Shown here: positions 73 through 60,052 of the stretch, piece by piece
How the letters are laid out: each line of letters opens with the position of its first letter
Position numbering within the stretch: the stretch's first letter is position 1
NCBI GenBank assembly: GCA_003169975.1
Contig: PNAA01000057.1
Location: forward strand, 1-64,000
DNA length: 64,000 nucleotides
Source of the DNA: Spartobacteria bacterium
GTDB lineage: Bacteria; Verrucomicrobiota; Verrucomicrobiia; Chthoniobacterales; UBA10450
Reading direction: 5' to 3'
Made by a program: the position numbers and the translations under genes
The notes under the pieces: generated by a model
Databases searched by the model: none
What the model saw: the letters and a program-made list of their open reading frames with translations, nothing else
What the model was told of the DNA's origin: nothing

Positions 73-1491
73 TCAATACTTCCGCCGCATATTGCTCGGC
101 AAAATATTCAGCTCAGTCCGGTACTTCGCGACCGTGCGGCGCGCGATCGGGATGCCGCGCTTGCCGAGGATCTCGACGATTTCCTTGTCGCTCAAGGGCG
201 TGCCGCCGGTCTCGTTTTTCACCAGGTCCATGATCGCTTCTTTCACGCTCGTGTTGCTCATCGAGACGCCACTCGAAGTCTGATAACCCGGTCTGAAAAA
301 GTATTTCATCTCGAAAACGCCCTGGGGCGTGGAGATATATTTGCCGGAAATGGCGCGACTGACCGTCGTCTCGTGCACCCCGACGGCGTCGGCGATTTGC
401 ACCATCGTCATCGGCTTTAAATGCGCCGAGCCCTGCTCGAGAAATTCTTTTTGCCGCGCGACGATCTGGTGGGCAATGTTCGAGATCGTCTGCTGGCGCT
501 GGTGAATCGACTTGATCAGGAATTTTCCACTCCGGATCTTGTCGCGGATGTAGTCCTTCACTTCGCCGTTGCTCCCGTCCTGCGACATGATGTCCTTGTA
601 GGTGTTGCTGATGCGCAGGTGCGGAATTTGTTCGCCGTTGAGGATGACCTGGTATTGGCCCTGGATTTTTTCCACCGTCACGTCGGGCAGGACATAATTT
701 TGCGGCGCCTCGGCAAAAATCTGCCCGGGCCGAGGGTCGAGCTGCGCAATGCTATTGGCTGCTTTCTGCACCTGCTCGACGCCAATCCCCATCCGGCGGG
801 CGATCTCCGGGAAGCGCCGCTTGCCGAGATCCGTCATGTGCTCGGAGACGATCCGGTACTCGAGACTCGTCTCGCGGCCGCTGCGCTTCAGTTGAATCAA
901 CAAACACTCGCGCAAATCGCGCGCGCCCACGCCCGGCGGATAAAAGCTCTGGATGAGCGTGAGCATGAGCTCGAATTCTTCCTGCGCGATGCCGGTGTTC
1001 ATCGCCATCTCTTCCGGCGTCGTCTGGAGAAAACCGTTGTCGTCGATGTTGCCGATGATCAGTTCCGCGGTCTTGCGATCATCCCCGCTCAGCGCGGTCT
1101 GGTTCAATTGGCCGACGAGATGTTGCTGGAGGGTTTCCTGGGTGGCGATCGAATCGAAAAAAAACTGCCGCTTTTCCTCGTCTTCCTGCGAGCGACCACT
1201 GTAGCTGTTCGATTGCGCCATATAATCGCGCCACTCGTCATCGAGCTTGGCCAGCTGATCGAATTCCTCCTTGAAATTATCCTCCGCCGGCTCGCTCTCG
1301 GAGACCTGGCGCTCCTCGTCGGTCGGCTCGGCCAACTCCTCGAGGACGGGATTGGTTTCCATTTCCTGCTGCACAAGGTTGCGCAGCTCGAGCAGAGGCG
1401 CCTGCAGAATCAGCAGACTCTGCTGCAACTGCGGCGCGAGGACCTGCTGTAGGGAAAGATTTTGCGACTGAAACATTCCCGGGCCGGCCAT
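73..1491 (-). CDS. rpoN: RNA polymerase sigma-54 factor RpoN
   Basis: This is the alternative sigma factor that directs RNA polymerase to -24/-12 promoters and depends on AAA+ activators. The 472-residue length is normal. The N-terminus is a glutamine-rich region I (FQSQNLSLQQVLAPQLQQSL, residues 7-26) followed by an acidic stretch around residues 50-85. The core-binding and helix-turn-helix regions follow, and near the C-terminus comes the RpoN-box signature ARRTVAKYR, ending in MRRKY. The ATG is preceded by a non-coding gap shared with a divergent small gene. The gene holds no exact copy of the dispersed 9-mer found in most of its neighbours. Identification is firm from region I plus the RpoN box. 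Confidence 0.95.
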   Translation of the reverse strand: MAGPGMFQSQNLSLQQVLAPQLQQSLLILQAPLLELRNLVQQEMETNPVLEELAEPTDEERQVSESEPAEDNFKEEFDQLAKLDDEWRDYMAQSNSYSGRSQEDEEKRQFFFDSIATQETLQQHLVGQLNQTALSGDDRKTAELIIGNIDDNGFLQTTPEEMAMNTGIAQEEFELMLTLIQSFYPPGVGARDLRECLLIQLKRSGRETSLEYRIVSEHMTDLGKRRFPEIARRMGIGVEQVQKAANSIAQLDPRPGQIFAEAPQNYVLPDVTVEKIQGQYQVILNGEQIPHLRISNTYKDIMSQDGSNGEVKDYIRDKIRSGKFLIKSIHQRQQTISNIAHQIVARQKEFLEQGSAHLKPMTMVQIADAVGVHETTVSRAISGKYISTPQGVFEMKYFFRPGYQTSSGVSMSNTSVKEAIMDLVKNETGGTPLSDKEIVEILGKRGIPIARRTVAKYRTELNILPSNMRRKY

Positions 1492-1622
1492 GGGCAGAGG
1501 GTACTAACTGACCTCTCTACCGCAAGCAAATTTCGCGCCGCGGAACAATCAGCGGGCTCGGGAAGCGGGTCCAAGGGCGCGAGGGAACGTGACTTGCTTG
1601 CTATCCCGGTGACACTTTGCCT

Positions 1623-1847
1623 ATGAAGAAACTTACGCTCCTCGGCGTGCTCGCACTTTTCGCCACCTCCCTCGGCGCGCAATCCCCCGCGCCCGCCGAT
1701 CAAAAACAGCTGGAGGCGTTGCTGAAAGTAGTGCAGGCCCAGCAAGTCCAGATCGCTGAGAACCAGGCGAAAATCGATGCGAAATTGGTGACCCTGGCCG
1801 AAGCGATCCGGATCGCGAGAATCTACGCTGGCCGGGGAGGGCGCTGA
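1623..1847 (+). CDS. Small secreted protein, function unknown
   Basis: A short protein of about 74 residues begins at ATG (MKKLTLLGVLALFATSLGAQ), a clear signal peptide ending at an A-x-A-like site near residue 20. The mature part is a Gln/Ala/Lys-rich helix likely to be a coiled coil (QLEALLKVVQAQQVQIAENQ). An in-frame TTG two codons upstream is a less likely start. The gene is separated by one base from the next ORF, which has the same plan (signal peptide plus helix), so the two are probably a periplasmic pair made from one transcript. No family recognised. Confidence 0.6.
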   Translation: MKKLTLLGVLALFATSLGAQSPAPADQKQLEALLKVVQAQQVQIAENQAKIDAKLVTLAEAIRIARIYAGRGGR

Positions 1848-1848
1848 T

Positions 1849-2148
1849 ATGCGAAATATTTTCTGGCTCACCACGCTGATGATTGCCGTCCTTGCGATTG
1901 CTTCGCTGGAGGCACAAACGCCCGCGCCCGTGATTGTGCAAGCGGCGAGTTCCGCGCCCGCCGGCCTGGCCGCCTCGCGGGCCGACTCTTCGACCGCCGC
2001 AGCCGACTCGAAGGACATGATGCAACTCCTGCAAGAGATGCAGGCGACCAACGACGCCACCATCAAAAAGCAGGAAGCGGCGCTGGAAACACTCGACGCT
2101 TTGCAAAAAGCTGCCGAAGAACTCAAGATCTTCAGCAAGCGCGGCTAA
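1849..2148 (+). CDS. Small secreted coiled-coil protein, function unknown
   Basis: A 99-residue protein with an N-terminal signal peptide (MRNIFWLTTLMIAVLAIASLEA), an Ala/Ser-rich linker, and a C-terminal amphipathic helix (about residues 60-95) rich in Gln, Glu and Lys. It starts one base after the stop of the preceding small secreted gene, implying translational coupling and a shared role. Its stop codon overlaps the 3' end of the convergent pcm fragment, so the original 3' flank may have been altered by a deletion. No known family recognised. Confidence 0.6.
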   Translation: MRNIFWLTTLMIAVLAIASLEAQTPAPVIVQAASSAPAGLAASRADSSTAAADSKDMMQLLQEMQATNDATIKKQEAALETLDALQKAAEELKIFSKRG

Positions 2149-2417
2149 CGACGCGGCGAAATGGTTTGGTCGTAGCCGATCGGCAACGACTGATCGCTAT
2201 AACCTAATTCGCGCACCGGCTCGGGCACGAACGCATCGCGCGGCACCTTGCGCAGCGCGGCCAGGACGCGCGCGTCCGTTACGCCGCGCATTGCAACTTG
2301 CTCCTCCACCATGCGCTCGCGCTCGGCGCTGAAATCGCGCCCGGGCGCCGCGGCCGGTTTGCAGCTCGCCAGAGCCACCAGGAGACCGAGCGCCACACGC
2401 CTCAGTCGGACTGCCAT
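2145..2417 (-). pseudogene. Truncated protein-L-isoaspartate O-methyltransferase (pcm-like), N-terminal part only
   Basis: The protein starts with a lipoprotein-type leader (lipobox L-A-S-C). It continues into the N-terminal segment typical of PCMT enzymes: ERMVEEQVAMRGVTDARVLA, then VPRDAFVPE, and YSDQSLPIGYDQTIS. In the family this last motif is followed by QPYIVA and the SAM-binding Rossmann domain. Here the frame ends three codons later, so about half of the normal ~210 residues and the whole catalytic core are missing. An in-frame ATG upstream gives a longer form, but the leader favours the start used here. The break lies exactly at the overlap with the convergent small secreted gene, suggesting a deletion. 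It cannot be an active methyltransferase. Confidence 0.7.
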
Positions 2418-2477
2418 GATGCAAAATCGTCGTAACCTGCTTACTTTGCACCCCACAATTTCCGCTTCTGCCTGCCC

Positions 2478-4529
2478 ATGAATGATGAACGCTCAGTCGC
2501 CGAAGACGTCGCCGCCGAGAAGGGACCACACGCCCATGAAGGTCCGCCGATGACGGAGCTGGAACGGATTCGCCATTCCTGCGCGCACGTCCTCGCCACC
2601 GCCATTCTCCGTCTTTGGCCGGAAGCGCAGTTCGCCGCCGGGCCGCCGGTCGAGAACGGCTTCTACTACGACGTCGAATTGCCGCACCGCATTTCGCCCG
2701 AGGATTTCGAGAAAATCGAGGCCGAGATGAAGAAGGAAACGAAAGCGAACCACGTTTTCGAGCGAGTCGAGCTCTCGCGCGGCGACGCGTTGGAAATGGC
2801 CAAACGTGGTGAACTTGGCGCCCTTGGTGCGAGATCTTCTCCGAGCAAATTCAAGCTCGATATCATCCAGAACATTCCCGAGGACGAAACGATCACGCTC
2901 TATCGCAACGGCGATTTTACGGATCTGTGCGCCGGCCCGCACGTCATGCGCACCGGCAACATCGGCGCTTTTCGCCTGACGAACGTCGCCAGCGCCTACT
3001 ACAAGGGCGACGAAAAGAACCCGCAGCTCCAGCGCATCTACGGCACCGCCTTCAAGAACAAGACGCAGCTCGACGAATACTTCGCGATGCTGGAGGAAGC
3101 GAAGAAGCGCGACCACCGCAAACTTGGCAAAGAGTTGGAACTTTTCACCTTCGACGACGACGTCGGCCCTGGCCTGCCGATGTGGCTCCCGCGCGGCGCC
3201 GCCATCATCGAGGAGCTGGAAAAGCTGGCCAAGGAAACAGAATTCGCCGCCGGCTATCAGCGCGTCCGTACCCCGCACATCGCGCGCGAGAATCTTTACC
3301 TAACGAGCGGACATCTGCCCTACTACGCGGACTCGATGTTTCCGCCAATGGAGCTGAAGTATGATGCTACAGAAGAACATAAAGCTGCGGAGTTAGAAGG
3401 CATCATTAGCGAAAAGCTAAAAGCGGTAGCGGCGTTCGAGGCAATCTTCTCTAAGCTTGGGATGGAAGAAGCAAGAAGAGATCATTTCGAAAAGTTTGAG
3501 CGTCTCCAACAGAACAAGAGCGAACTAGAGATTCTTAATAAGCGAAGGGAGGATCTGTTGTCGCGCAGTCGCTATTACCTCAAAGCGATGAACTGCCCCC
3601 ATCATCACAAGCTCTTCGCCGCGGTGCCGCGCAGTTATCGCGACCTCCCGCTCCGGCTCGCGGAATACGGGACCAACTACCGTTACGAACAATCGGGCGA
3701 ACTCTTCGGCCTCATGCGGGTGCGCTCCCTGCAGATGAACGACGCCCACATCTACTGCACCGAGGAGCAGTTCGAAGACGAGTTCAACGCCGTCAATCAG
3801 ATGTATCTGAAGTATTTCAAGATCTTCGGGATCGAGAAATACGTCATGCGCTTTTCCACCCACGATCCCGCCGAACTCGGCCAGAAGTTCGTCGATAACT
3901 CCGAGCTTTGGCTCAAGACCGAGGAGATGGTCCGCGGCGTTCTGCAACGCAGCGGGATCAACTACGTCGAGGTGCCTAACGAAGCTGCCTTCTACGGACC
4001 GAAGATCGACGTCCAGGTCTGGAGCGCGATCGGCCGCGAGTTTACGATCGCGACCAACCAGGTCGACTTCGCCGTCCCGGCCCGGTTCGGCCTCGTCTAC
4101 AAAACCCGCGCGAACACGGAGGCCACTCCGCTCTGCATTCATCGCGCCCCGTTAGGCACACACGAACGTTTCATCGGTTTTCTGATCGAGCATTACGCCG
4201 GCAACTTCCCGCTCTGGCTCGCGCCCGAGCAGGTCCGCATCCTCCCCATCGGCGATGAAGCGCCTCTGCTGGAATACGCGCGCGCGATCCAGAATGAGCT
4301 CCGCGCCCACGAAGTCCGCGCCGAGCTCGACGCCAGCAGCGATCACATCAAAGCGAAAATTTCCAGCGCCGAGCAGATGAAAGTGCACACCATGCTCGTG
4401 CTCGGAAACCGCGACATGGAAGCCAACGCCGTCAGCGTACGCGAGCACGGCAAAGGCAATCTCGGGGCCAGACCGCGGAATGAATTCATCGCTGGTGTCC
4501 TCGCGGCGATCAAGCAACGGCGCGGATGA
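2478..4529 (+). CDS. thrS: Threonyl-tRNA synthetase, TGS-less, with internal insertion
   Basis: Charges tRNA-Thr in the cytoplasm. The protein lacks the N-terminal TGS domain and opens directly into the editing domain, with HSCAH and the C-x-x-x-H pair DLCAGPH. The class II catalytic core follows with motif 2 (YRYEQSGELFGLMRVRSL) and the Zn/active-site segments MNCPHHHK and FYGPKID. The C-terminal anticodon-binding domain starts near RILPIGDEA. Between SMFPPM (about residue 290) and YYLKAMNCP lies an in-frame insert of roughly 65-70 residues, charged and probably coiled-coil. Its DNA (about 3358-3565) is visibly AT-richer with different codon use. A 9-mer GCCTAACGA sits at 3974, encoding P-N-E. 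Confidence 0.95.
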   Translation: MNDERSVAEDVAAEKGPHAHEGPPMTELERIRHSCAHVLATAILRLWPEAQFAAGPPVENGFYYDVELPHRISPEDFEKIEAEMKKETKANHVFERVELSRGDALEMAKRGELGALGARSSPSKFKLDIIQNIPEDETITLYRNGDFTDLCAGPHVMRTGNIGAFRLTNVASAYYKGDEKNPQLQRIYGTAFKNKTQLDEYFAMLEEAKKRDHRKLGKELELFTFDDDVGPGLPMWLPRGAAIIEELEKLAKETEFAAGYQRVRTPHIARENLYLTSGHLPYYADSMFPPMELKYDATEEHKAAELEGIISEKLKAVAAFEAIFSKLGMEEARRDHFEKFERLQQNKSELEILNKRREDLLSRSRYYLKAMNCPHHHKLFAAVPRSYRDLPLRLAEYGTNYRYEQSGELFGLMRVRSLQMNDAHIYCTEEQFEDEFNAVNQMYLKYFKIFGIEKYVMRFSTHDPAELGQKFVDNSELWLKTEEMVRGVLQRSGINYVEVPNEAAFYGPKIDVQVWSAIGREFTIATNQVDFAVPARFGLVYKTRANTEATPLCIHRAPLGTHERFIGFLIEHYAGNFPLWLAPEQVRILPIGDEAPLLEYARAIQNELRAHEVRAELDASSDHIKAKISSAEQMKVHTMLVLGNRDMEANAVSVREHGKGNLGARPRNEFIAGVLAAIKQRRG

Positions 4530-4589
4530 GCCGGTTTGCGGAAGCTGGGGAATTTCCGGTGATTTCGCTTCTCAAACGTCGCAAACAAT

Positions 4590-6260
4590 GTGATCGATTC
4601 CACGCCTGACTCGCCCGCGCGTCGTTCCGTTCTCCAGACGCTGATTTGGGGATTTTTCGCCGGAACCCTGGCGGCCCTGGCCATGCTTCTTTGCATGGCG
4701 CTGTTGCGGCTGTTTCTCGGTTGGCCGACGCCGACCGAACTCATTTTTGACCGGCTCTTTCCGCTGCTCACAGTCGAGTTCTTTATCGGCTCGCTGGTTA
4801 AGGCGGGCGGCTATACGCCGCTAAAGTTACAAGGTGTTTTCGGCGCGCTCGCCGGGCAGATCGTGGTCGCGGGATTGGGCGGCGTGATTTACGCGCTTTA
4901 CCTCCGGCGATCCTGGGCGGCGGTGAACCAGAAAGGCCGGGTGCTCGATCCGCGCGGCTGGTCGTTGCTCGTGCCAGGCGTGCTGGCGGTGACGACTCTG
5001 ATGGTCGTCCTGCTTTGGCCCACTCTCGTGACGAACTACCGCGGCTATCCGCCCGGCACCGCGCGCTGGATCGCTTCCCTCGAAATGCTCATTTCCTTTT
5101 CTGTCTGCGGCGTGGGCATCATGTTCTTTTGCGGCTTGCTCAATCGGCCGCCGTCAGGCCCTCGCGCGGCGCGAACGGAAGCTGACGCACAGCCCGGCAT
5201 CGGCCTCCGCAGATTTCTCGCCGTCGGCCTCGGAGCCGCGCTGGCGGTCGCGCTCGGCGGCGTGCTCAGGAAACTTTTTGCGCTCGGCACCTTCGGATAT
5301 GACGGGCGCCAATACAGTGGGCCAAAAGTCCAGAAGATCACGCCGATCCGACCCGATGATGAATTTTATCAGGTGAGCAAGAACCTGGTCGATCCCGACA
5401 TCTCGCGCGATGTCTGGCGGCTCGACATCGTCGGCCAGGTGGAGACGCCGCGCGTCTACAGCTTTGCCGAGCTCGCCGCCATGCCCGCGGTCGAGCAGGA
5501 GACGACTTTGCTCTGCATCTCTTACGGCGTGGGCAGCGGCCTTTGTTCGAACGCGATCTGGAAAGGGGTGCCGTTGCCGATGCTGCTCGCGCAGGTCAAG
5601 CCGAAACCGAACGTCACCACCGTCCTTTTCCGCGCGGCCGATGGTTACTACGAGACCTTCCGATTTGCGAAGGCGATGGAGCCCACCACGCTCGTCGCCT
5701 ACGAGATGAACGGTGAGCCGTTGCCGCAGCGCCATGGCTTTCCGTTGCGCCTGATCGTGCCCGGCCTCTACGGCGAAAAGAACCCAAAGTGGATCACGCG
5801 GATCGAGTTGCTCGATGAAGCGGATGGCCGTCTCCATTGCCGGCACGGCTGCGGTTTCTACAAGGAACAGGGCTGGGGACGCGAAGGCGATGTGATCCCC
5901 ACGCACAGCCGCTTCGATGCGCCCCAAGTGGCGGGCGGCCACTTCAAGGCGCCGTTCAAAGTGGGGCAACCGGTGGAGCTGCGCGGGATGGCCTTTGGCG
6001 GCGACCGCGGCATCTCGAAAGTCGAGGTCAGCAGCGACGACGGCCGGACGTGGACGGACGCGACGATTACCAAACCGGGCACGAAGATTTCCTGGTCGCT
6101 CTGGAGCTATAGCTGGACGCCCGCCATCGTGGGCAACACGACCTTGGTGGTGCGGGCGACTGACGGGAATGGCGCCCCGCAGATCAGCGAGTACCGCGAT
6201 CAGGTGCCGGATGGCGCGACCGGTTTGCATTACGTAAAAGCCCGCGTGGAGAACGGGTAG
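4590..6260 (+). CDS. Membrane-anchored molybdopterin-dependent oxidoreductase (sulfite oxidase/YedY-like)
   Basis: A 556-residue protein starting at GTG. The first ~180 residues carry four or five membrane segments. The second half is a sulfite-oxidase-fold molybdopterin domain: VDPDISRDVWRLDIVGQVE begins it, and Cys309 in LLCISYGVGSG is in the position of the Mo-ligating cysteine. The C-terminal ~100 residues (VELRGMAFGGDRGISKVEVS) match the Mo-co dimerisation domain. It probably acts on the outer face of the inner membrane with electrons passing to or from the membrane part. The substrate cannot be deduced. Stand-alone gene following thrS. Confidence 0.85.
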   Translation: MIDSTPDSPARRSVLQTLIWGFFAGTLAALAMLLCMALLRLFLGWPTPTELIFDRLFPLLTVEFFIGSLVKAGGYTPLKLQGVFGALAGQIVVAGLGGVIYALYLRRSWAAVNQKGRVLDPRGWSLLVPGVLAVTTLMVVLLWPTLVTNYRGYPPGTARWIASLEMLISFSVCGVGIMFFCGLLNRPPSGPRAARTEADAQPGIGLRRFLAVGLGAALAVALGGVLRKLFALGTFGYDGRQYSGPKVQKITPIRPDDEFYQVSKNLVDPDISRDVWRLDIVGQVETPRVYSFAELAAMPAVEQETTLLCISYGVGSGLCSNAIWKGVPLPMLLAQVKPKPNVTTVLFRAADGYYETFRFAKAMEPTTLVAYEMNGEPLPQRHGFPLRLIVPGLYGEKNPKWITRIELLDEADGRLHCRHGCGFYKEQGWGREGDVIPTHSRFDAPQVAGGHFKAPFKVGQPVELRGMAFGGDRGISKVEVSSDDGRTWTDATITKPGTKISWSLWSYSWTPAIVGNTTLVVRATDGNGAPQISEYRDQVPDGATGLHYVKARVENG

Positions 6261-50507: not shown

Positions 50508-51329
50508 ATGGACCAGACTCCCGCGCCGCTCATCCCGCAGGACGGCTGGCATTGCCTCCATCTTTTCTACCGGATCGAGTATGGCCAATGGCAATTGCTC
50601 AGCGCTGCCGAGCAGCGGGCCGCGAAAATTGCGCTTTCGACACTGGTGCAAGAGACGCGCGCGCTCGAATCCACCCAGCTTCTCACCCTCAGCCAGGTCA
50701 CGCCCAAAGCGGACCTCGGTTTCATGCTCGTCACACCGGACCTGCAAAGCGCGAACCGGATCGAGAAGCAACTCACGCTCTCGTTAGGCGCGGATGTCCT
50801 CGTCCCGGTTTACAGTTATCTCTCACTCACCGAGGAAAGCGAATACACCACGACCGACGAACAATACGCCGAGACGCTCGAGACCGAGCAGAAGCTGAAG
50901 CGCGGCACGCCGGAATTCGACGCCGCCCTGCAATCTTTCCGCGAGCGGATGCAAAAATACCGGCACGACCGCGTCTACCCGACGCTCCCCGACTGGCCAA
51001 TCGTCTGTTTCTACAACATGACGAAACGCCGCGGCGAACAACACAACTGGTATTCGCTGCCGTATGAAGAACGGCGCACTCTCATGGCCGGCCACGCCCG
51101 CGTCGGGCGGGAGTATGCCGGCAAGATCAAGCAGCTTATCACCGGCTCGACCGGGCTCGACGACGCGGAATGGGGCGTGACCCTCTTCGCGCACGACACT
51201 TTCCAGATCAAGGCAATCGTGTATCAGATGCGCTTCGACGAGGTGAGCGCGGCCTACGCCGACTTCGGTGAATTTTACATTGGCATTCAACTGCCGCTCG
51301 ACGAACTGTTTCGCCGCTTGCAGCTGTAA
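50508..51329 (+). CDS. hemQ: Coproheme decarboxylase HemQ (chlorite dismutase family)
   Basis: A 273-residue heme-biosynthesis enzyme that turns coproheme into heme b by two oxidative decarboxylations. The N-terminal half has the HYALYR-like segment WHCLHLFYRIEYGQW. The second half has the diagnostic FYNMTKRRGEQHNWYSLPYE (active-site Tyr and proximal loop), MAGHARVGREYAGKIKQLIT, GLDDAEWGVTLFAHD and YQMRFDEVSAAYADFG. This points to the coproporphyrin-dependent heme route. It is the last core gene before the tRNA-Ser island. TCGTTAGGC at 50781 encodes S-L-G. Confidence 0.93.
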   Translation: MDQTPAPLIPQDGWHCLHLFYRIEYGQWQLLSAAEQRAAKIALSTLVQETRALESTQLLTLSQVTPKADLGFMLVTPDLQSANRIEKQLTLSLGADVLVPVYSYLSLTEESEYTTTDEQYAETLETEQKLKRGTPEFDAALQSFRERMQKYRHDRVYPTLPDWPIVCFYNMTKRRGEQHNWYSLPYEERRTLMAGHARVGREYAGKIKQLITGSTGLDDAEWGVTLFAHDTFQIKAIVYQMRFDEVSAAYADFGEFYIGIQLPLDELFRRLQL

Positions 51330-51397: not shown

Positions 51398-51485
51398 GGA
51401 TGGGTGGCAGAGTGGTCGATTGCGCACGCCTGGAAAGCGTGTATGCCGCAAGGCATCCGGGGTTCGAATCCCCGCCCATCCGCCA
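51398..51485 (+). tRNA. tRNA-Ser (GGA anticodon)
   Basis: The acceptor stem GGATGGG pairs with CCCATCC, and CCA is encoded. The anticodon arm CACGCCTGGAAAGCGTG carries GGA, reading UCC/UCU serine codons. A long variable arm (TATGCCGCAAGGCATC region) and the T-arm GGGGTTCGAATCCCC are present, as expected for a class II tRNA. Its 3' end is the integration site of the adjacent island. The gene remains complete because the integrated element restored the same 19 bases. Confidence 0.96.
51466..51484 (+). other. attL: 19-bp core in the 3' end of tRNA-Ser
   Basis: GAATCCCCGCCCATCCGCC spans the T-arm and acceptor end of the tRNA. The identical 19 bases recur in the same orientation at 59320-59338, which lies in non-tRNA sequence. 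A direct repeat of a tRNA 3' end is the mark of tyrosine-integrase insertion. Confidence 0.9.
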
Positions 51486-51547
51486 CCTCATTTGCAAGAG
51501 GTTGATGACGAGGTAAGTAGCTGAAAATCAGAGACTCGAAATCCGCG

Positions 51548-53161
51548 ATGATCCAAAACACTGCTACAAAACCAGTCGTCGCTGTGCCCGGGTATTCACG
51601 CTTATTTCGAAGAGGTGCGATCTATTATTTCCGAGTTGTCGTTCCCCGCGAGTTGCGGAGCGCAATCGGAAAGTCGGAGATTGTCAAATCGCTTCGAACT
51701 GCAAATTTCAACGAGGCGAAGCGACTTGTTGCGTTCGAATCAGCAGACGCGGACGGCCTTTTCCATTCCGCACGCGTAAAGCTTCATCGCGTCAAATCTC
51801 CACGTCGCGAGGTTTCGAAATTATCTGATGCGGAAATTCACCGCTTGGTAATGGAGTGGTTCATTCAAATCGAAAAGCGATCTGAGGATTCGTGGCAAAA
51901 TGAAGGACGCCATCTGGCACTCGACGAGCGACAGGAAGCTTTGGAAAACCTCGGAATCGAGGAAACGGCATTGACAGCCGTATGGGGAGACGGAGGCGCA
52001 TGTCAGCCAATCGATGCGTCGAGGGATCTTGACCAGTTTCTCTCGCAGCGCGGAATCGACTGCGCAAGAGACAGTGCCGAGTACCGAAAGCTCACCGCTG
52101 TTTTTCACAGGGGAAGAATCGAAAACGTTCGGCGCGATATTGCTCGAATCGAAGGAAAGCCACGCCCAGCGGAAGACTTGATGTTTCGCGACCTCTCCGC
52201 GTACACACTTCTCTCCGCAGCTCAAGATTCCATCACTTTGGGCGAGTTGCTCAACCGCTTCTTGGCTTACGTCCAGGCAAAACGCTCCGAAACCACATTC
52301 TCCACGTATCAGACTCCGGCCCGGGTTATGCGCGAAGTGCTCGGAGAGGCCACCCCACTTCACAGCATTACAAGGGGCAGCATTGATCGTCTTTTCGATT
52401 TGCTCAGGAATAGACCTCAGAATACTTCGCAACGATATCGTGGCCTAACGACAGAGCAGGCGATTTCGGCGGCGGCGGCACGAGGCGACAATCTGAAACT
52501 TTCCCCAAAGTCGCTTGAAAATTATTACACAAACATTCTCGCCGTTTTCAATTTCGCCGTTGACGAGAAACTGATTGCTGAGAACCCGGCGAAGTTTCGT
52601 TCGCTCAGAGAGCAGTTTCGGACCAGGACCGTCAGGAAGAAGGCACTTTTCTCACCGGAACAACTGTCGCAGATTTTCCACTCGCCGGTTTACGAGCGAC
52701 CTTTTCAGATTGGGGACGCACACAGCGGGCGATTCTTCGTTCCTTTGCTCGCCCTATTCCACGGGTTTCGATGCAATGAAGCTTGTCAGCTCTACACGGA
52801 GGACGTGAAGCAAGAGCGGGGAATTCCTTTCCTCGCAATTCGTGAAGAACGCGAAGACGGATCGCAATGCGAAAAGCGGCTGAAAAATGAAGCGAGCAAA
52901 CGGAACGTCCCGATTCACCCCATTTTGTTGCGAGCAGGTTTCATGGAGTTCGTTGCGGAGCGCCGACGCGACAGCGCGTCACCTCGGCTTTTTCTTGAAT
53001 TACCGCTGGGCAAAACCAGACGATACAGCAATCCCTTTTCGAAGTGGTTCACCCGATATTTGCGTTCAATATTTGATGTGAAACCTGCGGCGACGTTTCA
53101 CAGCTTCAGGCATCATTTTCGAGACGCTTTGCGGGCGGGGCGCGTCGGGACCTATGGTTAA
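51548..53161 (+). CDS. Tyrosine recombinase (phage-type integrase), C-terminus truncated
   Basis: A 537-residue integrase. An N-terminal beta-rich domain (YYFRVVVPRELRSAIGKSEI) is followed by a core-binding SAM-like domain (TLGELLNRFLAYVQAKRSET; about residues 230-330) and the catalytic domain. The first Arg is in LFHGFRCNEACQL and the box II H-x-x-R in TFHSFRHHFRDAL. The protein ends eleven residues later (RAGRVGTYG), so the last catalytic His/Trp and the nucleophile Tyr, normally ~50 residues on, are absent. The gene is fused to unrelated sequence at about 53140. A short GCCTAACGA lies at 52443. It probably inserted the island but can no longer excise it. Confidence 0.85.
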   Translation: MIQNTATKPVVAVPGYSRLFRRGAIYYFRVVVPRELRSAIGKSEIVKSLRTANFNEAKRLVAFESADADGLFHSARVKLHRVKSPRREVSKLSDAEIHRLVMEWFIQIEKRSEDSWQNEGRHLALDERQEALENLGIEETALTAVWGDGGACQPIDASRDLDQFLSQRGIDCARDSAEYRKLTAVFHRGRIENVRRDIARIEGKPRPAEDLMFRDLSAYTLLSAAQDSITLGELLNRFLAYVQAKRSETTFSTYQTPARVMREVLGEATPLHSITRGSIDRLFDLLRNRPQNTSQRYRGLTTEQAISAAAARGDNLKLSPKSLENYYTNILAVFNFAVDEKLIAENPAKFRSLREQFRTRTVRKKALFSPEQLSQIFHSPVYERPFQIGDAHSGRFFVPLLALFHGFRCNEACQLYTEDVKQERGIPFLAIREEREDGSQCEKRLKNEASKRNVPIHPILLRAGFMEFVAERRRDSASPRLFLELPLGKTRRYSNPFSKWFTRYLRSIFDVKPAATFHSFRHHFRDALRAGRVGTYG

Positions 53162-53496
53162 CTTATCTGGAATTATCTCTGAACCCCACCCGCTTCCTCC
53201 GGCACCAAAACCCGGCAACCTTTCTCCTCCCGTCAGGACTTTCCGCCACAGATTCAAACTTCTTCCAAGTCGCGCCCTTAACCGATGCAGGAGAGGCAAG
53301 TCTCGATAATCGTGACAATTTTATACCCAACACCACCGAGTTTGACCGCCTCAGTGCCGGGAGTCTATGGCCGCAAGTCCTCCGTACCTATCTGACAGGA
53401 CTTTTACGGATCATTGACGACGACACGGAACGAGCGGCGGCGGGCGACAATGTCTGGATACAATTTGAGGATCGAATCGATCCACCACGTTTCACA

Positions 53497-54216
53497 TTGC
53501 GCGAGGCTGAGACATACTTCGACTTCATCGTAAGCGGACCGACTCCGATTTCATTAGTATCTAGCTTGGAAGGCCCCTTACAATCGTATCCGCTAAGCGC
53601 ACGCGACTACCCAGCGGAACCCGCGAGCAGTTGGGAAGGTATGTCCCGCGTTCTCACATTGCAGGTTCGCGAAGGCGTCAAGGTCAAAATCTACGCAAAA
53701 ACCAGTCGAAGGGTTCGGTTCGAGGTTACTTATGACATGAGATACGTTCGTCTTCGCTCGACGCCTACCGATGGAACCTACACACGGAAGAGACAAACCT
53801 TTCGTAATTTGAGCGGTGTTGAGCGAAGATTAGATGAATTGCGGGAAGATGCAGCCAATGAAGTGAACAAGGTATTGCGACACATAAGGAATCGGGTAAG
53901 CCTGCCCGCTACTCCGCACACGGCTATTGACCTTCTCATCGACTTCACGCGAGCGTTAAACAACCGAGAGAATGCTCGTATCTTACTAGATGCCTTGCTT
54001 TTCAAGGGCAGCATTACGTCATTGCCCCGTTACAAACTGGCTTTGGCTAAGTTGCGGCAGGCGGGAATTCTAGAGGCGCTCCCGACGAACCACGGAAAAG
54101 AGCATGTCGTTACAGCACCGTACAGGCACCCTCTCAGGATGTTGAGAGATCACGCAGCGTTTCCTAATCTTAGTATTCGCCAGAGAACCAGAGGCCCCCA
54201 CCCCCGGTCTGAATAG
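53497..54216 (+). CDS. 5'-truncated gene of unknown function (possible replication-type protein)
   Basis: The TTG start used here gives 239 residues, but the same frame is open back to 53077 with protein-like sequence (FDRLSAGSLWPQVLRTYLTG; IDPPRFTLREAETYFDF) and no start codon before it. The true protein was therefore longer at its N-terminus and was cut where the integrase fragment joins, at about 53140-53160. Notable segments are VREGVKVKIYAKTSRRVRFE and DEVNKVLRHIRNRV-like helices. The K-I-Y-A-K-T...R-R-x-R-F-E-V pattern recalls replication initiators of small phages or plasmids, a weak hint. Base composition is AT-richer than the chromosome. Confidence 0.5.
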   Translation: MREAETYFDFIVSGPTPISLVSSLEGPLQSYPLSARDYPAEPASSWEGMSRVLTLQVREGVKVKIYAKTSRRVRFEVTYDMRYVRLRSTPTDGTYTRKRQTFRNLSGVERRLDELREDAANEVNKVLRHIRNRVSLPATPHTAIDLLIDFTRALNNRENARILLDALLFKGSITSLPRYKLALAKLRQAGILEALPTNHGKEHVVTAPYRHPLRMLRDHAAFPNLSIRQRTRGPHPRSE

Positions 54217-54382
54217 AAGCACAAAGAGGTAATGCCCCCCTCCCACATCAGTCGCAAGAGACAGTTTGCCAAGTTTTTTAGAAATCTAGGTAACCGCTCA
54301 ATTTGCCAGTTTTGCCATGCTCCCTTATTGGGTTCCGATTTTGAACGTACGTGCAAAATTAGTTCTGGCTTGGCGATGAAAT

Positions 54383-55349
54383 GGTTCTGACCAGAATGGC
54401 ATTAAGTTAAGCGAGGTTATGGATGGTTTTGGTTGGGCGATTTCGATGGGAGAGATCGCCCATTTCATGATGTGGTCGGGTGAGGAGATGGAAGTTTTTC
54501 GGTCGCCGTTTTTTCGCTCTCGGTTCGCTTCGTCCAGGTCGGTAGGGAAGAGCATCCAAGGCGATCAACCGAAGCATATCGCTGATGAGAAGAGATTGCT
54601 TGCGGGGTTGGCCGAAGCTGGCATGGATCACTTCGCTCCACTGGCGGACGGTATCGAGTGTGCCTTTGAAGCAACAAAGCACCGCTGCCCAGGGAGAAAA
54701 GGCCGACCAGTTTGAGCAGGGGAAAGCCTAGCCCGGGCTTCTGCCAGCTCGATTGCGGCCAGCGTTCCTGGTTGGCAGCCGTATCCGGCATCGAGCACAT
54801 GGTCCCATCGACAATCTTTACTTCCCGGCCCTCCAGCCAGTGCTCGGCTCCGAGGGTGTTGCGTGCCAGGTTCCAGGCAAGACTATCATGAATTGACTTC
54901 AAAGTTTGACTGTCCAGCCGTGCCCGCGCCTGGCAATAGGCACTGGGAGTAAGTCCCCGCCGAGCACGTCTCTGACCCCAGCGCCACCAAGCCTCCACCT
55001 TGCGCACGGTCTCTCGACAGGAACTGTCCGGACTCAAAACCTGCCAGACAAACGCCCAGAAGGTAACTTGCGCGGGCAAACTTCTTCTTCGGCTGTTGAC
55101 TCCCTTCTCTGTGGGACTAAGTAGCCGTTGCGGAAAGAGGTCTCCAAAGATGGCATAGAGTTCCTGGAGCGAATCGTGCTTGCTTAAACGGGCCAGCGCC
55201 CCGCGCGCTGGTCGCCCGAAAAGAAGTGGTCCAAAGGCTCGAAAGAAGGGTGTCTGGTTTGGCATTCACTTGCCTAACATACCTACCTCAAACTAACCAC
55301 TCCTTTTATCCAATTTGCCCCTTATCTTAATGCCATTCAGAGCTGACCC
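54383..55349. mobile_element. IS4-type insertion sequence remnant with inverted ends
   Basis: GAATGGCATTAAGTTAAG at 54394-54411 is the inverse complement of CTTATCTTAATGCCATTC at 55321-55338, with 17 of 18 bases matching. Similarity extends outward for a few bases (GGTTCTGA / GGGTCAG). About 970 bp lie between the outermost ends, shorter than a typical IS4 element of about 1.4 kb, and the transposase is broken. The ends look better preserved than the gene, so it could be mobilised by a related transposase elsewhere. The exact ends and any target duplication are not clear. Confidence 0.7.
54465..55265 (-). pseudogene. IS4-family transposase, truncated and frameshifted
   Basis: The reading frame of 266 residues starts with an N-terminal domain typical of IS4-type transposases (LSPDSSCRETVRKVEAWWR; GLTPSAYCQARARLDSQTLK). 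The first catalytic Asp is in KIVDGTMCSMPDTAANQ, followed by GLGFPLLKLVGLFSLGSGA. After that, family likeness ends in this frame. Continuations in other frames (CFKGTLDTVRQWSEVIHA) suggest frameshift and internal deletion. The second Asp and the Glu of the DDE triad cannot be located. Inactive. Confidence 0.75.
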
Positions 55350-55395
55350 CAATTCACGATTCTGGGCGGGCGAGCCAATTCATAGACGACTGTTA

Positions 55396-57621
55396 TCAGC
55401 GAGATGACAGTGTCTGGTACTTTTGTAACGTCTTAAGTGCATTTTCTGTCTGACCGCTGTCCCTGTAAACAACTGTCAACAGTTCCCAGAGTTTAGCGTT
55501 CCTCGGCTCCATCGAAATCGCGTGGAGAAGTGTAGCAGCGGCATCGCCTGGCTTGCCAAGCCGCCAATAAGCTCGCCCTAATTCCTCCCAACCTTCTACG
55601 TGATCTGGTTCCAGTTCAGTATTATGCTGGAAGGCGGCTACCGCCGCGTCGAACTGTTTAATATCTCTATAACTGAGACCGAGAAAGAACCATCCCTTTG
55701 AGTCTGTGGGCCTCAGCGCGACGTACCGTTGAAGCGAATCGGCGGCATATCCGTGCTCGTTAGCGTCCTGGTATGAAACGCCGAGGAAAAGCCAAGCTTC
55801 AGCAAAATTTGGATTCGCTTTAACAGCCCGTTGGAATGGAGCAATCGATTCTCTATCCTTCTTTTGATCCAAATATGCCCGACCGATGTTATACCACGCA
55901 AAAGCGTATTCAGGCTTAATCTTCACCGCCTGTTGATAAGCTTCGATGGCTCGATCCGTGTTGCCTTGCGCTATGTACGCATTTCCGAGACTATTCCATC
56001 CGTCGGCGTTATCCGGCTTGATCGATAATCCCTGTTGGTACGCCACAATTGCTCCATTAATGTCGCCGCGTTCCTTATCCGAGTCTGCTAAGATGAACCA
56101 TATGTTCGCGTCATCCGGTTTGGCCTTGAGCGCCTGCCGGCAGGCCGCGATCGCGTCCTCGTATAAATTCAGCCCGTAGAACGTGATTCCACGAAGCTCA
56201 TTGAGCTCTTCGTTTTCTGGAAAGCGCTTTTCAAGGGACTTGATGAGCGTTAGAGCTGCAACATAGTTTTTTGAGTCAATCGCATCCAGGGCTTCGCCAA
56301 ATTCTCCATCGTCATACACGGACTTCGCCTCGCGAGCGATTAGCCTTTCCAGCGGTTTCACCATCGTATTGGGACTGACCTGACCTAACAACAATTTCGC
56401 CGCCTCGATTGGCACCGCGAAGTTTAATGCCTGGCCCTCGCGCATTAGCATTGTAGCAACGCCGAGGACCGAACCATTTGCGTCAAGTACAGGCGAGCCG
56501 CTGGAACCAGGGGCGATCGGCGCAGTGATTTGCAACCATTTTACTCTGCCGGGTAGTTCCCGCTTAGCCGAGATAATCCCGTCGGAAACCGTTCCTTCCA
56601 AACCAAGCGGACTTCCAATCACGGTAACGTGCTGGCCGACTTCCGCTTTCGCAGTGTCTCCCATTTCAAGAAAGGCGAAACCGTCTCCCTTCACGCGAAG
56701 CAAAACAACGTCAGAGTTTGAATTATCAGCCAAGACTCCCGCGACCTCATACATGGCCCCGTTCTCGAGTTTGACGACGATCCTGTTAGCTCCCTCGATG
56801 ACGTGGAAATTTGTAACCAGCATTCCGTCCGCAGAGACGAAAAACCCCGAACCGGTGGCAATCGCCTTATTCGCTGCGTCGAATACTTCGATCAGCGCTA
56901 CCGAACTGCGTGCCTTTTGCAGGCTCGTTTGCTGACGTGAAGTAGCAGCGAAGCGCCAAGTCGCGATGGAAATTGCGACGAAAGCCAAAGCTCCGGCTGT
57001 AACGAAGGCGCTCTTCCGCGAAAAACGCCAGTTTGCTGGAATTATCGGGCTTTCAGACCCATTTCTTTGACGCTGGATCCCCAAATTCCGTTCCTCGCCG
57101 CCACTGCCCCCATCAGGCTCGGAAGGCGCCTCGCGTGGAGGTTTCGAAGAATCCACACTTTCGTTTCCGGCGGCATGCGACGACTTATCGGACGGTCGGA
57201 CGGTGAACTTAAGACTCTGCTTTTGCGGCGCGTCCTGCGTGGTAGAGACGCTCAGGAGAGGGTGATTATGGTAAGCAAACGTCGCGAACATTCCACGGAT
57301 ATAGAAATATATAAAGATAAGTCGTAATGCGGAAGACTTGTCGATCCCGGAACTGATCATGTACACTTCGTTAAAGGTGCCGTAGCCGACAAGCAGAGCT
57401 GCGCAGATTCGACTTCGTTTATAAACACCGAACGCTAAGCCGAAAAGAATGACGGCATCCAAAAGTATTCCGCCACCGAATCCAGGCACAAGCTGGGTGC
57501 CTCCAATAGCAATTAATCCAACTACCAGAGTGACGCCGCCGCACACCAGCGCTGCAATCGACGCGCTTTTAATCGCCCGATCAATTTTTTCTTGTGAACT
57601 TGGCTGATCCTTCTTGGGCAT
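55396..57621 (-). CDS. Membrane-anchored trypsin-like serine protease with C-terminal TPR repeats
   Basis: A 741-residue protein. Four hydrophobic helices at residues ~15-115 (IALVCGGVTLVVGLIAIGG; LLDAVILFGLAFGVY) and one at ~205-222 precede an S1C (DegP-like) protease domain. The triad is His in LVTNFHVIEGANR, Asp in NSNSDVVLLRVKG, and Ser in APGSSGSPVLDANG. No PDZ domain follows. Instead, from ~residue 430, at least eight TPR repeats occur (AIEAYQQAVKIKPEYAFAWY is typical). It may degrade or sense proteins brought by the TPR part. It is the main intact cargo of the island; the small secreted protein gene upstream (36 bp) is probably co-transcribed. Confidence 0.87.
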   Translation of the reverse strand: MPKKDQPSSQEKIDRAIKSASIAALVCGGVTLVVGLIAIGGTQLVPGFGGGILLDAVILFGLAFGVYKRSRICAALLVGYGTFNEVYMISSGIDKSSALRLIFIYFYIRGMFATFAYHNHPLLSVSTTQDAPQKQSLKFTVRPSDKSSHAAGNESVDSSKPPREAPSEPDGGSGGEERNLGIQRQRNGSESPIIPANWRFSRKSAFVTAGALAFVAISIATWRFAATSRQQTSLQKARSSVALIEVFDAANKAIATGSGFFVSADGMLVTNFHVIEGANRIVVKLENGAMYEVAGVLADNSNSDVVLLRVKGDGFAFLEMGDTAKAEVGQHVTVIGSPLGLEGTVSDGIISAKRELPGRVKWLQITAPIAPGSSGSPVLDANGSVLGVATMLMREGQALNFAVPIEAAKLLLGQVSPNTMVKPLERLIAREAKSVYDDGEFGEALDAIDSKNYVAALTLIKSLEKRFPENEELNELRGITFYGLNLYEDAIAACRQALKAKPDDANIWFILADSDKERGDINGAIVAYQQGLSIKPDNADGWNSLGNAYIAQGNTDRAIEAYQQAVKIKPEYAFAWYNIGRAYLDQKKDRESIAPFQRAVKANPNFAEAWLFLGVSYQDANEHGYAADSLQRYVALRPTDSKGWFFLGLSYRDIKQFDAAVAAFQHNTELEPDHVEGWEELGRAYWRLGKPGDAAATLLHAISMEPRNAKLWELLTVVYRDSGQTENALKTLQKYQTLSSR

Positions 57622-57656
57622 AGCGGACTAAGTTTGGATTCGGCCACAATTTGACT

Positions 57657-58109
57657 CTAATAAGTCGATGTATCTTTCTCCTTCTTTTCCGATCCGTCCG
57701 CGAAGCCCTTATCCCAGATTACAAATGCATTCTTTGCTTTGTCGAACATGCCCGCGACCTTTCCGTCGTCTCTGTTCCATAAAATAGTGCTCTCAGTCTC
57801 CACGCCGCGAACAAACGTAGCACCTTCTGAATTAGCCCTAAGCAAGTCGTTGAGAGTTGCCGCAAGAAATTCAGATTTATCGGTCTGCAAGAAGATGGCA
57901 CTCACGGCGCAGTCGTTATGGAATGAGACGACGATAACAAAGCCGCCCTTCTCAAATCGTGCGCTTTTATCAATACCTCCGGAGCTACTAACCTCCCTGA
58001 TTGGCGCACCGTATCGGGCGACGCATTGTTCAAATGTCTCATGGAGGCGCGCATCTGCTTGAACACACATAACGCAGGTCAGGATAATTACAGCTACCAG
58101 CCGTGTCAT
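57657..58109 (-). CDS. Small secreted protein upstream of the protease-TPR gene
   Basis: A 150-residue protein with a signal peptide (MTRLVAVIILTCVMCVQADA) and a mature domain beginning LHETFEQCVARYGAPIREVS. A second segment (SEFLAATLNDLLRANSEGAT; FVIWDKGFADGSEKKE) completes it. One Cys in FEQCVARYG and another in HNDCAVSAIF could form a disulfide in the periplasm. The pattern E-x-C-x-x-R-Y-G-x-P is seen in small secreted proteins of unknown role. It precedes the protease gene by 36 bp and could be its substrate or inhibitor; this is inference. Confidence 0.65.
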   Translation of the reverse strand: MTRLVAVIILTCVMCVQADARLHETFEQCVARYGAPIREVSSSGGIDKSARFEKGGFVIVVSFHNDCAVSAIFLQTDKSEFLAATLNDLLRANSEGATFVRGVETESTILWNRDDGKVAGMFDKAKNAFVIWDKGFADGSEKKEKDTSTY

Positions 58110-58219
58110 TGCATCAACCTTTCTTTGGATAGGGCGTTTTATTCGCTGTATTTTGCCTTTGGACGAATCTTCTCCAAGCTACCTTCTGCTCACGTGATTG
58201 GGGAAAGATCGGTTTGGGC

Positions 58220-58408
58220 TCAATTTTCTAAGGCGTGAACAAACAGCTCGTAGACAACCGCTCCATGCTTTCGAAATACGTATTTGGAAGGAGTGCCATG
58301 ACTTTTCACTGAGTCGGCCTCGATTCGCTCCGGCTCCTGACCGATGCGTTTGATCTCAAATGCGACGGGAGATGGAGTCATACATGTTTTGGTCTGAATG
58401 AACATCAC
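58220..58408 (-). CDS. Hypothetical protein, 62 residues
   Basis: A small ORF (GTG start, overlapping the stop of the upstream gene as GTGA) encodes SPVAFEIKRIGQEPERIEAD, then VKSHGTPSKYVFRKHGAVVY and ends LFVHALEN. The coupling supports translation. No domain is recognised. It lies in the right half of the tRNA-Ser island. Confidence 0.45.
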   Translation of the reverse strand: MMFIQTKTCMTPSPVAFEIKRIGQEPERIEADSVKSHGTPSKYVFRKHGAVVYELFVHALEN

Positions 58409-58803
58409 TCCACGGCTAACGAGTATGGCACGTCGTTCCCATCGGTTCTCTGGATCTTCTCAAGCGCTTCTTTCGGCAGCTTGAGAATAGTGACCGTAAA
58501 GTGCCTGGCGGTGACAAAGCGGCCCAGGGGAATAGGCTCAGCGCGTGAGCCGTGAATTGCGGGGCCGAGAATATCGATTCGGGCGCCAAAGAGGCGATCT
58601 TGCGGGAAGTGATACGGGATCAATTCGCCAATCGCCTCACCGCCCGGATGCGATATCCGGATTTTACCAATCCGCATATCGGGAAATAGCGGTTCCATGG
58701 GATACATTGGAGGAGTGAGGTCGTCAGAGTCCACGTAATCAGACGAAATGAAAGCAGGTTTCAGTCCACGGCGAACCAGTCGGTTGCTGGCTCTTCCCTG
58801 CAA
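58405..58803 (-). CDS. Hypothetical island protein
   Basis: An ORF of 132 residues (TTG start; an internal ATG at MYPMEPLFPDM is an alternative) with beta-rich sequence: MRIGKIRISHPGGEAIGELI and ARHFTVTILKLPKEALEKI. No signal peptide or TM. It overlaps the next small gene by four bases, suggesting a two-gene unit. No family recognised. Confidence 0.5.
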   Translation of the reverse strand: MQGRASNRLVRRGLKPAFISSDYVDSDDLTPPMYPMEPLFPDMRIGKIRISHPGGEAIGELIPYHFPQDRLFGARIDILGPAIHGSRAEPIPLGRFVTARHFTVTILKLPKEALEKIQRTDGNDVPYSLAVE

Positions 58804-58906
58804 ATCTCATTTTTGAAGCCGAACCAGACGCCGCAGTCCGCGGCAGGCACATCGCTCTCGCCCTGGAGCAGCGGTTTTCGGTTGACCGGTTATCAATGGT
58901 CGCGCA

Positions 58907-59173
58907 ATGAAAAACGCGACCCTTCTTCTTTCAGTTCTCACCAGCGTGATGCTAGCGAACTGCGCGGGCGTTAGCCCGAGGCGCATTATCGGCGACACCG
59001 TCGGCCAGGCCGGCGGTGCGTTCATTGGCAACAAGCTGAGCAACGGTAATCCGCTGATCACCACCGCGGCCGCAGGCGGCGGCGTGCTCCTGAGCGAGTT
59101 GCTCCAGGCGCAGAGCAACGCTTCTTCGCGCAAGTCCTACGATGCCGGTTATGGAGTCAGGACATGGGGTTAG
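58907..59173 (+). CDS. Small lipoprotein with glycine-rich hydrophobic segment
   Basis: An 88-residue protein: the signal peptide ends in a lipobox-like L-A-N-C (MKNATLLLSVLTSVMLANCA), followed by GDTVGQAGGAFIGNKLS and AAAGGGVLLSELLQAQSNAS. The glycine-spaced hydrophobic helix resembles glycine-zipper small lipoproteins. The last codons run into a palindrome (ATGGGGT ... ACCCCAT, 59166-59194), so the 3' end may have been replaced by a repeat element. It lies near the right end of the island. Confidence 0.6.
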   Translation: MKNATLLLSVLTSVMLANCAGVSPRRIIGDTVGQAGGAFIGNKLSNGNPLITTAAAGGGVLLSELLQAQSNASSRKSYDAGYGVRTWG

Positions 59174-59194
59174 GCATCGGTTCTGACCCCATTT
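59166..59194. repeat. Short palindrome at the lipoprotein 3' end
   Basis: ATGGGGT and ACCCCAT are inverted around a 15-base loop, and GGTTCTGACCCC resembles the outer bases of the IS4-type remnant's right end (GAGCTGACCCC). It overlaps the stop codon of the small lipoprotein. It may be the scar of another mobile repeat, or a weak terminator. Confidence 0.4.
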
Positions 59195-59319
59195 CGCAGC
59201 GTTCACCTTCCCCGACTGTCGCGTGATGTTTGCTTGCCTTGCTACAAATCACTGCTACAAATTGACCGCAGCGGATTTTCGATCGCTCTGATTTTAAGGT
59301 ACTTACGATGCGCGGAGTA

Positions 59320-59338
59320 GAATCCCCGCCCATCCGCC
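59320..59338 (+). other. attR: 19-bp copy of the tRNA-Ser 3' end
   Basis: GAATCCCCGCCCATCCGCC repeats the attL core exactly and in the same orientation, but without the rest of a tRNA before it. It marks the distal end of the island; the core gene that follows starts 49 bases later. Confidence 0.9.
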
Positions 59339-59386
59339 GCCGACTTTCGCTTGTCACCGCGCACGTTTTGCGAAAGCATCCCCGCC

Positions 59387-60052
59387 ATGCGCGCCGCCGC
59401 CCTCGCCCTCTCCATCTTTTTCGCCCTTAACGTGCCGCGGGCGCAGGGCGAAAACCCTTTCGTCGCTCACCTCGTCGAGGCCGCGCAGGCTGACTACAAG
59501 AGCGGTCACCTTGATTCCGCCCTAACGAAACTCGACGAGCGCGAAAAGACGGAAGGCACGAGCGGCGAAGCGCTCGACCTGCGCGGCTCGATCGCACTCG
59601 AGCAAGGCCGACTCGAGACCGCGCAAAAGGCCTTCACCGCGGCGCACACTCTCGCGCCGGATTTCTTCGCGCCCCGCTTGCACCTCGGCGATCTGTTGCT
59701 GCGCGAGAAGAATTACGCGGCGGCGCGCGCCATTTACCAGCAGCTTTCGACCGAAACCACCGTCCTCATTTCGAGCGAGCGGTTGCGCTTCGCGCTCTTG
59801 ATCGTCGCCCTTGCGACGCACGACGAGGAAGCCTCGAAGAGTTCGCTCGAGAACATCAAATTTCCCACGGAGACTCCGGCTTATTACTACGCCCAGGCGG
59901 CCTGGGAATTCGCCCACGGAAACCCCCGTTCCGCTCATCAGTGGATCGATACGGCGGGCGAAATTTTCGAGCCGCAGCTGCTCGCCTGGTTCGCGCGCCC
60001 GCTCTACGACCTCGGCTGGCTCAAAGAAAAGCCGCCGCCCGCGACCCTCTAG
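59387..60052 (+). CDS. Secreted TPR-containing protein
   Basis: A 221-residue protein with a signal peptide (MRAAALALSIFFALNVPRAQ) and TPR-type helices (AALEAAQADYKSGHLDSALT-like; LEQGRLETAQKAFTAAHTLA; LLLREKNYAAARAIYQQLS). The C-terminus is helical with AAWEFAHGNPRSAHQWIDTA. It probably mediates protein contacts in the periplasm. It is the first gene right of attR and ends by overlapping, tail to tail, the stop of the next gene. A degenerate CCCTAACGA occurs at 59520. Confidence 0.75.
   Translation: MRAAALALSIFFALNVPRAQGENPFVAHLVEAAQADYKSGHLDSALTKLDEREKTEGTSGEALDLRGSIALEQGRLETAQKAFTAAHTLAPDFFAPRLHLGDLLLREKNYAAARAIYQQLSTETTVLISSERLRFALLIVALATHDEEASKSSLENIKFPTETPAYYYAQAAWEFAHGNPRSAHQWIDTAGEIFEPQLLAWFARPLYDLGWLKEKPPPATL

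Follow-up and report, generated by a model that had tools for sequence, protein, structure and literature searches.

Islands mapped by Islander (PMC4383910) consist of a tDNA and a displaced 3' fragment of the tDNA that points the same way; a tyrosine integrase gene separates the two, and the length exceeds 2 kb. Small integrase-bearing islands are also represented by the PICMI phage satellites of Vibrionaceae, which occupy one fixed site and can confer immunity to phages (PMC10803314). The island described here was found in a 64,000-nucleotide stretch of DNA (the window) from a Spartobacteria bacterium. Like the islands mapped by Islander (PMC4383910), it has an intact tDNA, a cognate 3' fragment in the same orientation and at sufficient distance, and a tyrosine integrase gene between the two, and the corresponding site is empty in relatives. 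Unlike islands of that type, it is small and decayed, and its integrase is truncated. It shares with PICMI (PMC10803314) its small size and the possession of an integrase, but its target is a tRNA gene, whereas PICMI are inserted at fis. Neither the AlpA-type regulator nor the primase that mark PICMI were recognized in the window element. The relaxase and complete set of type IV secretion genes that mark an integrative conjugative element are not in it either, only a 307-bp gene fragment. An inovirus or an ordinary prophage was also considered and rejected, since no morphogenesis genes were recognized in the element.

The tRNA-Ser(GGA) locus and its empty sites

ARAGORN predicted a tRNA-Ser(GGA) gene at 51398-51485 on the forward strand with its CCA encoded, and the tRNA is therefore intact, as had been claimed in the initial annotation. 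A 19-mer, GAATCCCCGCCCATCCGCC, spans the tRNA from the T-loop to the acceptor end (51466-51484, the attL core) and recurs exactly, on the same strand and 7,854 bp downstream, at 59320-59338 (the attR core, a displaced tRNA 3' fragment). No third copy was found within the window with up to three mismatches allowed, and there were no further copies with up to two mismatches in the whole 4.47-Mb genome, which is a draft of 59 contigs. Shuffled sequences gave a mean of 0.06 matches to the 19-mer, and two matches were found in none of 100 shuffles. Thus, the exact direct repeat that had been reported at the tRNA 3' end and 7.85 kb away was located at both places and is unique in the genome. Repeat positions, empty sites, and a drop in GC content from about 0.60 outside to 0.49-0.55 over most of the interval delimit an island (51485-59338) that measures 7,854 bp from the end of one repeat to the end of the other. 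The DNA at its right end (59120-59345) is unique in the genome and is not a genomic repeat. The flanking genes are those named in the initial annotation: hemQ on the left (50508-51329, forward strand; PF06778, NF008913) and a chromosomal TPR gene on the right (59351-60052, forward strand), which directly follows the tRNA at empty sites.

The two copies of the repeat differ in the base that follows the core, which is A at attL (reading CCA) and G at attR (reading CCG). In this respect attR resembles the four congeners, all of which lack an encoded CCA in this tRNA gene. This contrast fits an attL that was supplied by the island and an attR that is the old chromosomal end. The tRNA-Ser(GGA) allele of the window also differs from that of all four congeners by compensating changes in the T-stem (CGGGG/CCCCG in the window, CAGGG/CCCTG in the congeners) and in the variable arm.

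The order rhomboid gene, hemQ, tRNA-Ser(GGA) is conserved within the family, and in each of 29 relatives examined the tRNA comes immediately after hemQ. The empty site that the initial annotation had proposed to look for was present: hemQ, tRNA-Ser(GGA), the TPR gene and a hexapeptide gene follow each other in one congener (G003), in genomes from three further genera of the family (G006, G014, and G016), and in G036, which belongs to the same genus as G006. When the interval was removed and the flanks of the window were joined at the 19-mer, the sequence was colinear with these empty sites. G003 is the only congener that has kept the TPR gene at the empty site; many other genomes of the family no longer have it, and there the hexapeptide gene comes next after the tRNA. 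Relatives carrying the same genes at this locus with no direct repeat had been named as the observation that would speak against an island. The integrase was found in none of the 82 other family genomes searched, and therefore no such relatives were encountered. The search did not turn up a sister strain in which this same island is intact.

Other genomes show different structures at this site. In another genus (G023, locus L128, 930-1115), the 3' end of tRNA-Ser(GGA) is followed 165 bp downstream by a second copy of 21 bp with a short stretch between, which is probably a scar left by an island that once occupied this site. In G010 and G024 (L121, L122), the 16-19 kb read downstream of the tRNA contained neither the TPR gene nor the hexapeptide gene, and no related integrase was recognizable there; these are other rearrangements at the tRNA-Ser(GGA) site.

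Since the repeat pair is unique, the site is empty in relatives, and the integrase is absent from the 82 family genomes, the interval is best explained as a tRNA-integrated island, and the order tRNA, integrase, cargo, tRNA fragment was also seen around related integrases. It is very probable that a small mobile island with a DUF6538-type integrase used the 3' end of tRNA-Ser(GGA) as its insertion site and then decayed in place. A circular form of the island bearing a copy of the tRNA-Ser 3' end would have recombined with the matching end of the tRNA-Ser(GGA) gene on the chromosome. The copy from the island would have rebuilt the tRNA as attL, and the displaced original end would have become attR, 7,854 bp downstream. 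A later deletion appears to have joined an integrase short of about 66 codons at its end to an ORF2 short of about 130 codons at its start; an IS4 element landed and was reduced itself, and other genes were broken.

The truncated integrase and ORF2

The initial annotation had placed an integrase gene just inside the tRNA. Its position holds, as the frame begins on the forward strand 63 bp after the tRNA, at 51548, but the annotation did not notice that the gene is truncated. It is a pseudogene (51548-53161) of a tyrosine integrase with DUF6538, SAM-like and Phage_integrase domains, the last two of which match slightly under the Pfam curated cut-offs. The best relatives in the collections searched are from Verrucomicrobiota and share 36-40% identity over most of the length. 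While full-length relatives run about 66 residues beyond the HxxR box and include the catalytic-tyrosine motif, the frame in the window ends in FRDALRAGRVGTYG followed by a stop, just past HxxR, and the catalytic tyrosine is missing. A frameshift does not explain the loss, as the missing tail was absent from every frame of the island. Because its integrase lacks the catalytic tyrosine, the island is predicted from its sequence to be unable to excise with this enzyme.

Among 38 relatives of this integrase, 25 start no more than 300 bp downstream of a same-strand tRNA, and the tRNAs next to them are those for Ser, Ala, Gln, Trp, Met, Gly, Leu, Arg, and Tyr. In 10 of these 25, 15 bp or more of the tRNA end recur 6-11 kb downstream, and two more relatives at tRNA-Ser(CGA) have their repeats 12.6 and 13.8 kb away. 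The arrangement in the window thus matches that of related elements. For the other 13 of the 38, the fetched stretch contains no tRNA within this distance; two of them start at the edge of the stretch.

Downstream of the integrase is a frame of 357 aa (ORF2, 53143-54216, forward strand), most of which corresponds to the C-terminal two thirds of proteins of 445-513 aa that are encoded downstream of the integrase in relatives; the N-terminal ~130 aa are missing. The homology to integrases stops at about 53134 and the homology to ORF2 starts from about 53167, and a single deletion with its junction at 53135-53167 (forward strand) therefore appears to have taken the 3' end of the integrase gene, any genes between, and the 5' end of ORF2.

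ORF2 accompanies the integrase in all eight verrucomicrobial relatives examined (L042, L043, L044, L045, L047, L077, where it is split, L112, and L113), and tblastn among the fetched loci matched the remnant to L043 with E = 5e-32. In the phylum, it is present in 4 of 388 genomes, the window genome included. Two of the other three have strong matches together with an integrase and a tRNA-Ser(CGA), and the fourth match is weak and partial. ORF2 has no match in Pfam, PHROGs, or NCBIfam. Its AlphaFold model is poor (mean pLDDT 65) and has no significant match to folds in the PDB; weak winged-helix matches at the C-terminus weakly suggest that a winged helix may be present there in the model. ORF2 may be a DNA-binding replication or excision factor. 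A role as a rolling-circle replication protein, considered by eye from the motif IYAKT-RRxRFEV, was unsupported by Pfam, PHROGs, NCBIfam, and PDB sequences. BFVD matches to the model with E of about 1e-3 were discarded, as their rmsd was 15-24 A.

The insertion sequence and the right-hand segment

An IS4-type insertion sequence of 945 bp between inverted ends (GAATGGCATTAAG, read directly) lies at 54394-55338. Its transposase (54465-55265, reverse strand) is internally deleted, and its matches to the family models (Nterm_IS4 and transpos_IS4_1, both partial) are confined to their N-terminal part. The genome has one copy of this element. Similar short motifs, GGTTCTGACC, GCTGACCCC, and GGTTCTGACCCC, are located beside the IS4 remnant and the right end (54383-54392, 55343-55351, and 59177-59189), and they are possibly a small dispersed repeat.

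To the right of the IS4 remnant, an intact gene on the reverse strand (55396-57621) encodes a 741-aa membrane protein with a trypsin-like protease domain and TPR repeats, and this cargo gene is the main intact content remaining in the island. No full-length counterpart was found among 57 relatives, where only its domains were found. PADLOC matched it to other systems through their protease domain, which does not show a role in defense. The next cargo gene (57657-58109, reverse strand) encodes a 150-aa protein with a probable signal peptide, and distant homologs with 21-36% identity are present in 23 of 87 relatives. Two short overlapping frames of 62 and 132 aa (58220-58803, reverse strand) are possibly one broken gene, and the longer one has no homolog in 57 relatives. 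Finally, 58847-59153 on the forward strand (ORF 58907-59173) corresponds over 307 bp to the 5' part of the gene that opens a type IV secretion cluster in relatives, with 79-86% DNA identity, and all eight matches end at 59153. In relatives, the cluster encodes TrbL, CagX, TrbI, and TraG. In the family members at L102-L107, it opens with a small probable lipoprotein gene, and G004 has two such loci.

Because the right-hand cargo has no convincing homologs in related elements, part of it may have arrived separately. Taken further, the interval would be a composite, in which a left island remnant (the integrase and ORF2, to about 54.3 kb) was joined later by insertions on the right (IS4, the protease-TPR gene, and the conjugation-gene fragment), and much of the apparent cargo was never mobilized with the island. 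The IS4 remnant does divide the two halves, and the sharp cut of the conjugation-gene fragment at 59153 also points to separate insertions. On the other hand, related elements as a rule differ in the cargo that they carry between ORF2 and the right repeat, and all of the content lies within one pair of repeats. We regard the composite as possible but rather unlikely; it refines the history of an island inserted at the tRNA and decayed in place, and the two are not mutually exclusive.

The same 307-bp fragment at the right end could indicate that the interval is what remains of an integrative conjugative element after deletion of its transfer genes. This is improbable, however, as the elements whose integrases are closest measure 7.6-14 kb with no transfer genes recognized among their scanned proteins, the stretches read around the relatives' conjugation clusters contained no tRNA, and the integrase is absent from the genomes that carry these clusters. 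Lastly, an ancestral chromosomal segment lost by relatives, with a coincidental 19-bp repeat, has already been largely refuted and is hardly credible: the locus is prone to loss, as the adjoining TPR gene itself was lost in most relatives, but an exact repeat of a tRNA end is not expected by chance, the GC drop coincides with the interval, the 82 other family genomes lack the integrase, and related integrases are in the same arrangement at other tRNAs.

Related elements in Verrucomicrobiota

As a small tRNA-integrated island, the window element is ordinary in kind, and it is one well-delimited case of decay after integration with an empty site to compare. The family behind it is more interesting, as the integrase and ORF2 point to a wider group of small elements, and we found little literature on mobile elements of this phylum. 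We defined this family on L042, L043, L047, L112, and L113, and partly on L044, L045, and L077. L043 (CAIZLD010000075.1, G139) is from an uncultured Spartobacteria bacterium of the same order as the window genome. The window has the defining features of the family, namely a DUF6538-type integrase downstream of a same-strand tRNA and, as a remnant, an ORF2 homolog downstream of the integrase. In L042, L043, L112, and L113, as in the window, the integrase comes directly after the tRNA and ORF2 is downstream; L047 likewise has an integrase after the tRNA, but with a second integrase in between. All five have the tRNA-end repeat at the far end, as the window does. Unlike the window element, the relatives have a full-length integrase and ORF2, and they carry other cargo. 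Several are apparently intact, with lengths of 7.6-14 kb, positions adjacent to a tRNA, and repeats of 14-18 bp.

The cargo of the relatives includes Septu, Iet, methyltransferases with nucleases, serine resolvases, and terminase-small-like HTH proteins. The slot that follows the integrase or ORF2 is occupied in L043 by a methyltransferase and a Septu-like PtuA with its HNH partner, by IetA/IetS in L112, and by a cytosine methyltransferase with a GmrSD-type nuclease in L045. The terminase-small-like HTH genes are accessory, being found in L042, L045, and L047, and none was recognized in the window element. The apparently intact relatives in Verrucomicrobiota thus seem to keep a core of integrase and ORF2 and to swap cargo, several of them with anti-phage defense genes. 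Since members carry recognizable anti-phage systems and the core gene ORF2 has no assigned function, the family is a concrete target for studying how small defense islands move in Verrucomicrobiota. No description of it was found in the open-access literature on DUF6538, Chthoniobacter islands, or verrucomicrobial tRNA satellites with defense genes.

We tentatively propose, as an idea that is possible but less likely than not, that the window element is a fossil from a family of small elements in Verrucomicrobiota that target tRNA genes, are so far undescribed and are defined by a DUF6538 integrase and ORF2, that ORF2 would act as a replication or excision-control factor, and that some members with a terminase-small-like protein might be packaged by helper phages and carry defense cargo. 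The second integrase of L047 belongs to the same element as the first: after tRNA-Ser(TGA), two related DUF6538-type integrase genes are in tandem at 1463-5121.
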